The notes under the pieces: generated by a model
Seen by the model: only the letters and a program-made list of their open reading frames with translations
What the model was told of the DNA's origin: nothing
Database searches by the model: none
NCBI RefSeq assembly: GCF_016132445.1
Contig: NZ_CP046056.1
Coordinates: 1,550,001 to 1,614,000, forward strand
Direction: 5' to 3'
Origin: Venatoribacter cucullus
GTDB taxonomy: Bacteria; Pseudomonadota; Gammaproteobacteria; Pseudomonadales; Oceanobacteraceae
Length of the DNA: 64,000 bases
Program-made: the position numbers and the translations under genes
Shown: positions 39,936 through 42,793 of the stretch, one piece after another
Layout of the letters: every line of letters begins with the position of its first letter
How positions within the stretch are numbered: position 1 is the stretch's first letter

Positions 39936-40643
39936 ATGCGTCTTGATAAATTTCTTGCTGACACCACCGACCTCACCCGCTCACTGGCCACCAAAGCCGT
40001 TAAACAAGGCCGGGTGCTGGTGAACGGTGACAAGCCCAAAAGTGCCGCCGTTAAAATTGCCGACACCGATCTGGTGACCTTCGATGGTGAAACCCTGACG
40101 CTGGAAAGCGGCTTCCGCTACATCATCATGAACAAACCGACCGGTTATGTGTGCACCCACCGCGACAGCACTCACCCGCTGGTGTTCGACCTGCTGGAAG
40201 GCATTATCAACCCACGCGACCTGCACACCGTCGGCCGCCTGGACGTCGACACCACCGGCCTGCTGCTGATCACCGACGACGGCCAGTGGTCGCACATTCT
40301 CACCTCGCCCAAACGCCACAAACCCAAGGTATACCGTGCCTGGCTGGCTGAAGACCTGTGCGACGAAGCCGAATTGCGTTTTGAGCGCGGCATTCTGCTG
40401 GAAGATGACGACACCCCCACCTTACCGGCGCAGCTGCAGCGCATTACCCCGCGCGAAGTGCTGGTGACCATCCACGAGGGTCGTTACCACCAGGTTAAGC
40501 GCATGTTTGCCGCGCTGAGCAATCATGTGGAAAAACTGCACCGCGAGAGTATGGGAGGGCTGGAGCTGCCCGCTGACCTGGCCGTGGGTGAGTACCGGCC
40601 GTTGACGGAAGAAGAAATAGCCCGGGCTATAGCCGTTGGCTGA
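39936..40643 (+). CDS. rsuA: 16S rRNA pseudouridine(516) synthase RsuA
   Basis: A 235-residue enzyme that isomerises U516 of 16S rRNA. It has an N-terminal S4-type RNA-binding domain (MRLDKFLADTTDLTRSLATK) and the RluB/E/F/RsuA catalytic block VGRLDVDTTGLLLITDDG with the catalytic Asp, followed by GRYHQVKRMFAA. The start at MRLDKFL fits the family; upstream codons in frame lack similarity. Transcription is towards the large inverted-repeat element, which begins 12 bp after the stop. Confidence 0.94.
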   Translation: MRLDKFLADTTDLTRSLATKAVKQGRVLVNGDKPKSAAVKIADTDLVTFDGETLTLESGFRYIIMNKPTGYVCTHRDSTHPLVFDLLEGIINPRDLHTVGRLDVDTTGLLLITDDGQWSHILTSPKRHKPKVYRAWLAEDLCDEAELRFERGILLEDDDTPTLPAQLQRITPREVLVTIHEGRYHQVKRMFAALSNHVEKLHRESMGGLELPADLAVGEYRPLTEEEIARAIAVG

Positions 40644-40655
40644 CGGCTGCCAGCC

Positions 40656-41420
40656 TTTTTGCCAGCCCGCTGGTACGGCCGCAGCTGACCTTGCATGCTG
40701 TACGCCAGCCCTGCCGGGCTGGTTTAGCTGCCGCTGCGCGGCAGCTTATGCGGCCTGCAGCCGCTGGACAGGCCGCCGTTGGCGGCCTGATGCGGGGCTC
40801 CGCCCCCGCGCCCCGATTGCGAGGAACTTATCCTCGCGCTCCAGCTTTGCGCTGTATAGCACGTATTCCCTCATTCACCGTCATTGCCTGCGGCCACGGA
40901 TCGTAAGGCGCGTCGTGCGCCACGATCCTCGCCCGGTCCATCCGGGCGGGCCTGTCAATGACGCTTCATTTCGGCGTGCTATAGGCGCGGATAAAACCGC
41001 AGCAAATTTAAAATCATATATCGGCCTGCGGCCGGAAGAATTTTCGGTTTTCGGATTTTGCGTGCGTAGCACGCCCCAAAAAGCCTTTCCGGCGTAGCCG
41101 CTGGGGTTTGTTCCGGCCCATTCGTTCCAGCCCGAAGTTTGGCAAAGCCAATAGCATCGTTTGGATGACTCCAAACGAGCGGCCAGGGGCATGGATGCCC
41201 CTTGACCGCGTATGCGTTATTGGCTTTGGTAAACGAGGATCAGCTGGGACGCGGGCCAGAGGGGATTGTAAGGGGATTCCTCCCCTTACATTGGGGCGCA
41301 GGGGCGGAGCCCCGCATCAGGCCAGCCGCGGCAGCGGCGGCCGTACCAGTCTGCAAGGCTGGCCTGCAGCACAAACCGCAGTGATGGCCAAAGACACCCA
41401 GCCCAACGGGCTGGCAAAAA
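40656..41420. mobile_element. 765-bp hairpin-dense element with imperfect terminal inverted repeats
   Basis: The gap between convergent rsuA and trpB2 holds no convincing gene but a symmetric structure. Collinear inverted pairs are TTTTTGCCAGCCCG (40656-40669 with 41407-41420, 14 of 14), CTGGTACGGCCGC (40670-40682 with 41337-41349, 13 of 13) and a 31-bp arm (40784-40814 with 41293-41323, 30 of 31). Inside are many perfect hairpins: GGCCGCC-GTT-GGCGGCC, GCGAGGA-ACTTA-TCCTCGC, GTTTGGA-TGAC-TCCAAAC and AAGGGGA-TTCC-TCCCCTT. There is also a nested stem from CGTCATTG (40879) to CAATGACG (40963). The ends lie 12 and 11 bp from the two stop codons. It could be a non-autonomous insertion of MITE type or an rsuA/trpB2 terminator complex; no target duplication was seen. 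Confidence 0.6.
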
Positions 41421-41431
41421 ACCCCGCGCTG

Positions 41432-42793
41432 TTAAGCGCCCTTCACCTTCGGTAAACGCTCCAGCGCTGCATCAATTTCCGCCTGCGGGTACTCGTAGTC
41501 TTCCAGCTGGTTATTCAGATACTTGTCGTACGACACCATATCGAAATGACCATGACCGGAAAGGTTGAAGAACAGCGTCTTGGCCTCGCCAGTCTCCTTG
41601 CAACGCAGTGCTTCATCGATACAGGCACGAATGGCGTGGTTGGATTCCGGTGCCGGGATAATGCCTTCAGTGCGGGCAAACTGCACACCGGCCTGGAAGG
41701 TCGCGACCTGCGGTACCGCCACCGCTTCGATCAGTTTTTCGTGGTACATCTGCGATACCAGCGTAGAAGCACCGTGGTAACGCAAACCACCGGCGTGAAT
41801 GCCCGGCGGCATAAAGTCGTGGCCAAGGGTGTATTGCAGCATCAGCGGGGTCAGGCCTTCGGTATCACCGAAATCGTAGGCGTAGTGACCACGGGTTAAG
41901 CTCGGGCAGGAGGTCGGTTCAACCGCCACCAGACGCACTTTTTTGCCACCGGCCGCTTCGTCGGCGTAGAACGGGAACGCCGCGCCACCAAAGTTAGAAC
42001 CGCCACCACAAGGGGCAAAAATCATATCCGGGTAGTCACCCACCAGCGCAAATTGCTTTTTCGCTTCCAGGCCAATCACGGTCTGGTGCAGCAGCACGTG
42101 GTTCAGCACCGAACCCAGGGCGTATTTGGTGTCGGCGCGACTGGCGGCTTCTTCCACCGCTTCGGAAATGGCAATGCCCAGTGAGCCCTGGTTATTGGGG
42201 TCGGCGGCCAGAATCTTACGGCCGGCTTCGGTAAGATTACTCGGGCTGGCAATCACTTCCCCACCCCAGGTCTGCATCATCGAACGGCGGAACGGCTTCT
42301 GCTCAAAACTCACCTTCACCATGTACACACGCACATCAATGCCGAACATCTGGCCCGCCAGCGACAGCGACGAACCCCATTGGCCGGCGCCGGTTTCGGT
42401 GGTTAAGCGCGTAATACCGGCTTGTTTGTTGTAATAGGCCTGCGCAATGGCCGAGGTCAGTTTGTGCGAACCGGCGGCGCTGATGCCTTCGTACTTGTAG
42501 TAAATTTTGCACGGCGTTCCCAGCGCTTCTTCCAGGCGGTGGGCGCGGAACATCGGCGTCGGGCGCCATTGCTGGTAAATCTCACGCACCGGCTCCGGAA
42601 TATCAATCCAGCGCTGCATCGAGACTTCCTGCTCAATGATATTGTCGGCAAAAATGGCCGACATCGCAGAACCATCCAGCGGCTTACCATCCGGGCCCAG
42701 TGACGGCGCCGGCGGGTTTTTCAGATCGGCCGCCACGTTGTACCACTGTTTCGGGATATCGGTTTCGGGCAGCAGGATTTTGGTTTGTTTCAT
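41432..42793 (-). CDS. TrpB2-type tryptophan synthase beta-like PLP enzyme
   Basis: 453 residues of the TrpB2 branch, which is longer than TrpB1 and often lies apart from the trp operon. Landmarks are GSHKLTSAIAQAYYNK with the PLP lysine, ETGAGQWGSSLSLA and the phosphate-binding CGGGSNFGG. It condenses indole and serine to tryptophan; TrpB2 proteins may salvage indole or use other substrates such as O-phosphoserine. No trpA is adjacent. The start is at an ATG, and the gene is divergent from lon. Confidence 0.92.
   Translation of the reverse strand: MKQTKILLPETDIPKQWYNVAADLKNPPAPSLGPDGKPLDGSAMSAIFADNIIEQEVSMQRWIDIPEPVREIYQQWRPTPMFRAHRLEEALGTPCKIYYKYEGISAAGSHKLTSAIAQAYYNKQAGITRLTTETGAGQWGSSLSLAGQMFGIDVRVYMVKVSFEQKPFRRSMMQTWGGEVIASPSNLTEAGRKILAADPNNQGSLGIAISEAVEEAASRADTKYALGSVLNHVLLHQTVIGLEAKKQFALVGDYPDMIFAPCGGGSNFGGAAFPFYADEAAGGKKVRLVAVEPTSCPSLTRGHYAYDFGDTEGLTPLMLQYTLGHDFMPPGIHAGGLRYHGASTLVSQMYHEKLIEAVAVPQVATFQAGVQFARTEGIIPAPESNHAIRACIDEALRCKETGEAKTLFFNLSGHGHFDMVSYDKYLNNQLEDYEYPQAEIDAALERLPKVKGA

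Follow-up and report, generated by a model that had tools for sequence, protein, structure and literature searches.

The gap between rsuA and trpB2 in the 64 000-nucleotide stretch of Venatoribacter cucullus DNA analyzed here (hereafter, the window) is filled by one copy of a dispersed, palindromic element with relatives at ∼30 places in the same genome. The explanation we favor, with a probability of about 0.55, is that this element stands in for ordinary terminators and carries paired RNA modules of the TwoAYGGAY type that are candidate CsrA-binding sites, with the copies serving as CsrA decoys. Under this explanation, the element is non-coding and has taken the place of ordinary terminators, chiefly those of convergent genes. 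Full copies contain two divergent TwoAYGGAY-type modules, each with a long stem that closes a three-way junction with two GGA-loop hairpins and is followed by a tail of GGA hairpins; the outward strand of each module would be transcribed, its GGA hairpins would bind CsrA/RsmA dimers, and the copies would jointly make up a dispersed set of decoys.

The element occupies positions 40644–41432, its last base falling in the trpB2 stop codon. The stop codons of rsuA and of trpB2, which is encoded on the minus strand, are located at 40643 and 41432, respectively, so that the gap is 788 bp long, and the outermost arms begin ∼12 bp inside each of the stops. The preliminary description presented a symmetrical element with inverted pairs spanning the entire gap and ends close to the stop codons, and the arms are indeed where it placed them: 40656–40673 with 41403–41420 (18 nt, 94%), 40670–40687 with 41332–41349 (18 nt, 94%) and 40772–40817 with 41290–41335 (46 nt, 85%), along with further inner pairs. 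The RNA folding that it recommended gives, for the entire element as one strand, a minimum of −465 kcal/mol compared with −344 ± 8 for dinucleotide shuffles (z = −14.9, 0 of the 20 shuffles as low). The open reading frames of 153, 103 and 115 amino acids within the element are unsupported readings of the repeat and are not counted as genes; as also noted initially, the element encodes no credible protein. The informative part of the preliminary description was the recurrence of GGA in the loops. Each half of the window element has two GGA-in-loop hairpins on its outward strand, four in all, compared with a background level of 0.25 per 270 nt.

A pattern scan detects a terminator-like hairpin with a T run over the rsuA stop codon (40635–40659, plus strand) and a terminator-like site over the trpB2 stop codon (41422–41439, minus strand), both reading into the element. 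Small palindromes, such as CCAGCCCTGCCGGGCTGG at 40705–40722, form a left (40656–40790) and a right (41320–41420) outer array; this exact hairpin class has 17 occurrences genome-wide, of which 16 are at element sites. Between the left array and the center, on the minus strand, lie a GGGGC-GGA-GCCCC hairpin with its GGA on this outward strand (40794–40808), the tail hairpin of the left module, located by alignment (GCGAGGATAAGTTCCTCGC, 40819–40837), and the left module proper, of class A (40849–40988), with a long stem around a three-way junction, a core at 40890–40958 that scores 29.1 bits with the model R1 (see below), and a hairpin CCCGG-AUGGA-CCGGG (40932–40946) that is a candidate CsrA site. 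The A+T-rich center (40989–41106), without a sigma-70-like promoter in the scan, is followed by the right module, of class B (41115–41257, plus strand), a TwoAYGGAY homolog with an R1 core at 41147–41217 (42.5 bits). In hairpin 1 of this module (CGUUUGGA-UGAC-UCCAAACG, 41158–41177, plus strand), the GGA can pair with UCC, so that the site is probably masked; hairpin 2 (GGGGCAUGGAUGCCCC, 41186–41201, plus strand) has a canonical AYGGAY loop and is another candidate CsrA site. Further out on the plus strand are the tail hairpin GTAAGGGGATTCCTCCCCTTAC (41268–41289), the best-conserved piece across the genus, and a second GGGGC-GGA-GCCCC hairpin (41301–41313), its GGA again on the outward strand.

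As a query against its own genome (2 827 114 bases, one contig), the element yields 122 matching pieces at ∼30 places, and the stretches around nearly all of these were taken for comparison; searches of phage and plasmid records found no similar DNA. Most copies begin at one gene's stop codon and extend to where the neighboring gene ends, a full copy being ∼600–850 bp long. Convergent gaps hold 16 of the 30 element sites compared with 11 of the 49 neighboring gene pairs in the window (P = 2e-4), and no element site lies between divergent genes, compared with 10 of the 49 pairs (P = 1e-3); these counts are approximate because the gene orientations come from simple ORF calls. The halves of the copies, compared in the outward orientation, give 49 modules with a core unit of ∼143 nt, which fall into three classes, A (14), B (20) and C (15). 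All 20 copies with two opposed modules are divergent and none is convergent: the left module lies on the minus strand and its right-hand partner on the plus strand, so that both point outward. At one other site, the two modules are in tandem. The symmetry of the element is that of two divergent RNA modules, an arrangement that recurs in relatives. The modules are flanked on the outside by the tail hairpin, a GGGGC-NNN-GCCCC hairpin and small palindromes, whose mosaic varies between copies, and within a class, the module cores are nearly invariant while the outer hairpins are variable. About half of the 16 copies scanned have an inward-facing hairpin with a T run in an outer arm.

The identification of the modules as homologs of TwoAYGGAY RNA (Rfam RF01731; Weinberg et al. 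2010, PMC2864571) is well supported. RF01731 matches the right module at 41120–41254 over model positions 1–168 of 168 with 39.8 bits (E-values from 3e-5 to 2e-4 in small searches). This is the best score in the genome, where no copy reaches the gathering cut-off of 43 bits, and the three sub-threshold matches there are all inside elements. The cut-off is exceeded in 11 of the 35 genomes of relatives, in 0 of the 14 control genomes and in 15 of the 369 genomes sampled across the class. At E ≤ 0.001, there are 54 matches in relative G010, 27 in G018, 17 in G017 and 15 each in G003 (a complete genome) and G008. Because relatives carry copies over the cut-off, several of them in high copy, we consider the point of homology settled. 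The covariance model R1, built from 25 cores with no class A sequence in training, nevertheless recovers the class A modules at ∼29–32 bits, and its genome-wide census comprises 42 cores, none outside elements and both window modules included. With RF01731 matched without truncation and the R1 core matched as well, the full architecture, a long stem around two hairpins, is present. As to the AYGGAY loops, in the window element, hairpin 2 of the right module has AUGGAU and hairpin 1 is masked, and the left module has AUGGAC in one hairpin and no GGA in the other; in class C, GGA is present in both loops of some copies. The structured RNA proposed initially holds in part, the element being a structured-RNA homolog, and the family of that part is known, both modules going with TwoAYGGAY. 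Given this RNA homology, an integron attC array is unlikely. The modules resemble TwoAYGGAY RNA in the long closing stem, the three-way junction, the two GGA-loop hairpins, the end-to-end match and the copies over the cut-off in relatives, but differ in that the copies in this genome fall below it, with one of the two loops masked or lost. The RNA family itself is already known; what appears new is that it is dispersed in divergent pairs, each within a large, multi-copy palindrome that replaces terminators, a setting absent from the descriptions in the accessible literature, that is, outside supplements and subscription journals.

In an alignment of 25 divergent cores, 86.6% of the cells are paired, compared with 57.4% after shuffling and only 26–54% for slid structures, and the covariation score is 0.632 versus 0.165 (0 of 500 shuffles as high), while the GGA and the following G are invariant in both loops. 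Covarying stems combined with invariant GGA loops are the signature expected of CsrA binding, and the modules would, by inference, be bound by CsrA. Several loops equal or nearly equal the CsrA SELEX consensus RUACARGGAUGU quoted in PMC7652899, for example, GUACAGGGAUGUAC at locus L230 of a relative and GGUACAGGAUGUACC in class C of this genome. Among the 49 modules of this genome, the mean number of GGA-loop hairpins per module is 1.6–2.3 on the outward strand and 0.3–0.7 on the inward strand, against the background of 0.25, and all 49 keep at least one on the outward strand. The excess of G.U over A.C pairs in the unique stems of G018 (36 to 10, P = 1.6e-4) supports the AYGGAY strand; the support is weak in this genome (29 to 14 pairs, P = 0.03; 18 to 4 in its cores only, a subset chosen afterwards), and the remaining genomes, taken together, give a null result (35 to 31). 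Unpaired GGA in the minimum-energy folds of single modules is not significantly more frequent than in shuffles, so that the argument from GGA is carried by polarity and the invariant columns. TwoAYGGAY was predicted to bind CsrA from motif matches, according to PMC4333381, and a CsrA gene is present in this genome. A scan for sigma-70-like promoters in the window element and 13 centers gave none above shuffles and the terminator-like hairpins at the edges read inward; the copies may, therefore, be silent. The Rfam RsmZ model has no match in this genome, which is weak evidence because the model is narrow.

For the neighboring trpB2, the nearest named relatives are Thalassolituus and other Oceanospirillaceae/Saccharospirillaceae. 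Close pairs of cores in the relatives are divergent in 14 cases and convergent in none, and within the genus and among its closest relatives, the divergent cores are mostly separated by ∼138–148 bp; the divergent arrangement is a conserved one. Gaps between convergent genes hold 20 of the 43 clusters in relatives, and single modules in these genomes show no preference for the strand of the neighboring gene; a strand-specific role in cis was rejected on the latter ground. Two relatives show other arrangements. G010 has same-strand tandem arrays of two to four TwoAYGGAY cores at a spacing of ∼320–425 bp (L230–L234). In G018, copies with a very similar 69-nt core are each enclosed in their own unique, nearly perfect inverted repeat of ∼25 bp (L208–L215 and L225–L229); that the core stays constant while every copy has a different stem suggests that the copies inserted into palindromes or that insertion itself makes inverted flanks.

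A search for empty sites, also recommended at the outset, found short gaps in relatives at all three loci checked, and plain terminators in two of these gaps. The rsuA and trpB2 genes of Thalassolituus marinus (L058) are convergent too, with a gap of ∼90 bp and a plain bidirectional terminator. In a joined-flank query, the gene pair at L162 (on the left presumably a yjgA-like and on the right a nitrilase-like gene), 759 bp apart in this genome, is nearly abutting in several relatives, and the pair at L146 (which we take to be hda-like and aspC-like), 699 bp apart in this genome, is separated in relatives by less than ∼200 bp, several of these gaps showing terminators. It follows that the element was gained at these loci in this lineage, replacing ordinary terminators. 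The element has inverted ends, but the original spacer in relatives is too diverged to define a target duplication. As a candidate reading, the non-autonomous mobile element of the preliminary description fits in part: the dispersed repeat and the empty sites agree with it, but the REP transposase family is absent.

Classes A and B each have one loop of the two masked or lost, which makes a decayed or purely parasitic DNA repeat a serious rival. The element could be a REP/BIME-like or MITE-like DNA repeat, with a transposase acting in trans and palindromes that matter as single-stranded DNA hairpins, the resemblance to RNA being incidental or left over, an explanation that we regard as possible although unlikely. 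It accounts for the dispersed, mosaic, palindromic copies at the 3' ends of genes, the preference for convergent gaps and avoidance of divergent ones in this genome, the indifference of single modules in relatives to the strand of the adjacent gene, and the REP-like blocks (GTAGGAGTGGATC...) that flank copies in the genus; a similar pattern is described for REPs in PMC3733652. The REP/BIME units are, however, 20–40 bp long, far smaller than a 600–850 bp element with 143-nt modules; the outer hairpins are REP-sized. As a mobilizer, a RAYT/Y1 transposase (PF01797) was rejected, being absent from this genome and from the copy-rich G003 and G008. The element shares with MITEs the lack of coding capacity, dispersal, inverted-repeat ends and empty sites in relatives, but not a fixed terminal sequence, an observed target duplication or an identified partner transposase. 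Nor would a DNA hairpin explain GGA loops that are invariant while the stems covary and that face mainly one strand.

Alternatively, the copies could be relicts: TwoAYGGAY elements would have spread in an ancestor, and their descendants would since have decayed and become neutral. This seems less probable than a REP- or MITE-like repeat. The scores below the Rfam cut-off throughout this genome, the loss or masking of one GGA site in class A and class B modules, and the failure of the sigma-70 scan and the PF01797 search to find a promoter or a mobilizer agree with decay, but the near-invariance of the cores within each class next to variable outer hairpins and the retention of an outward GGA loop in every module do not. 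Still more doubtful is a cis-acting 3' element of the flanking genes, that is, a replacement terminator, a stabilizer of mRNA 3' ends or an antisense insulator for convergent genes. Such a role would suit copies that reach from one stop codon to the other at places occupied by ordinary terminators in relatives, the convergent excess and the inward hairpins with T runs in the outer arms, but terminators alone need neither conserved 143-nt three-way junctions nor invariant GGA loops, the first module strand met by each mRNA in a convergent gap would be the wrong one, and single modules in relatives occur on either strand. Finally, the preliminary description allowed for a single-copy sequence or for chance arms in G+C-rich DNA. 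The sequence is G+C-rich, but the folding z-score and the ∼30 homologous copies refute chance inverted repeats, leaving this explanation a negligible probability, and the element is anything but single-copy.

The small RNAs that sequester CsrA or RsmA, CsrB, CsrC and RsmX/Y/Z, are encoded by one or a few genes with their own regulated promoters. The modules share with them several hairpins with GGA in the loop, some of which equal the SELEX consensus, but comprise ∼42 dispersed cores without a visible promoter. A more far-reaching version of the decoy explanation, which we offer as a tentative and rather improbable proposal, is that a mobile or formerly mobile element carries a pair of CsrA decoy RNAs as cargo and spreads by replacing the terminators of convergent genes, so that dozens of GGA-loop modules together would set the level of free CsrA, in place of or beside the classical Rsm small RNAs. 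If the decoy explanation holds, the tuning of a global regulator would fall to a family of repeats instead of one or two small RNA genes dedicated to it. In the accessible literature, TwoAYGGAY, a candidate RNA since 2010, has no established function, and its link to CsrA is a prediction only. A high-copy, dispersed set of divergent pairs in one family of marine gammaproteobacteria, with dozens of copies in some genomes, makes CsrA binding and titration directly testable, and complete genomes and, perhaps, culturable strains offer the testing ground.

The composition of individual copies varies further. One convergent gap (L152, G000:C1:1915164-1915366) has only the small outer palindromes, without an RNA module. 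Single-module copies at L141, L143, L145 and L155 adjoin heptad-like repeats (CAACGCTCAACCCTGAACG) that seem to belong to another repeat family, and what we take to be Pseudomonas-like REP sequences (GTAGGAGTGGATCTTATCCACG, GTGGGAGCGGGC...) flank elements or sit inside them in this genome and the genus (L031–L033 and L163). In some class B modules (L158, L162 and L039), the GGATG loop is enlarged by an extra hairpin block (ATGGACAATTTTGT...AAAGGCAGGATGCCTGAAGTCT), and this block is nearly identical in another species, which implies that hairpin blocks are exchanged within modules.
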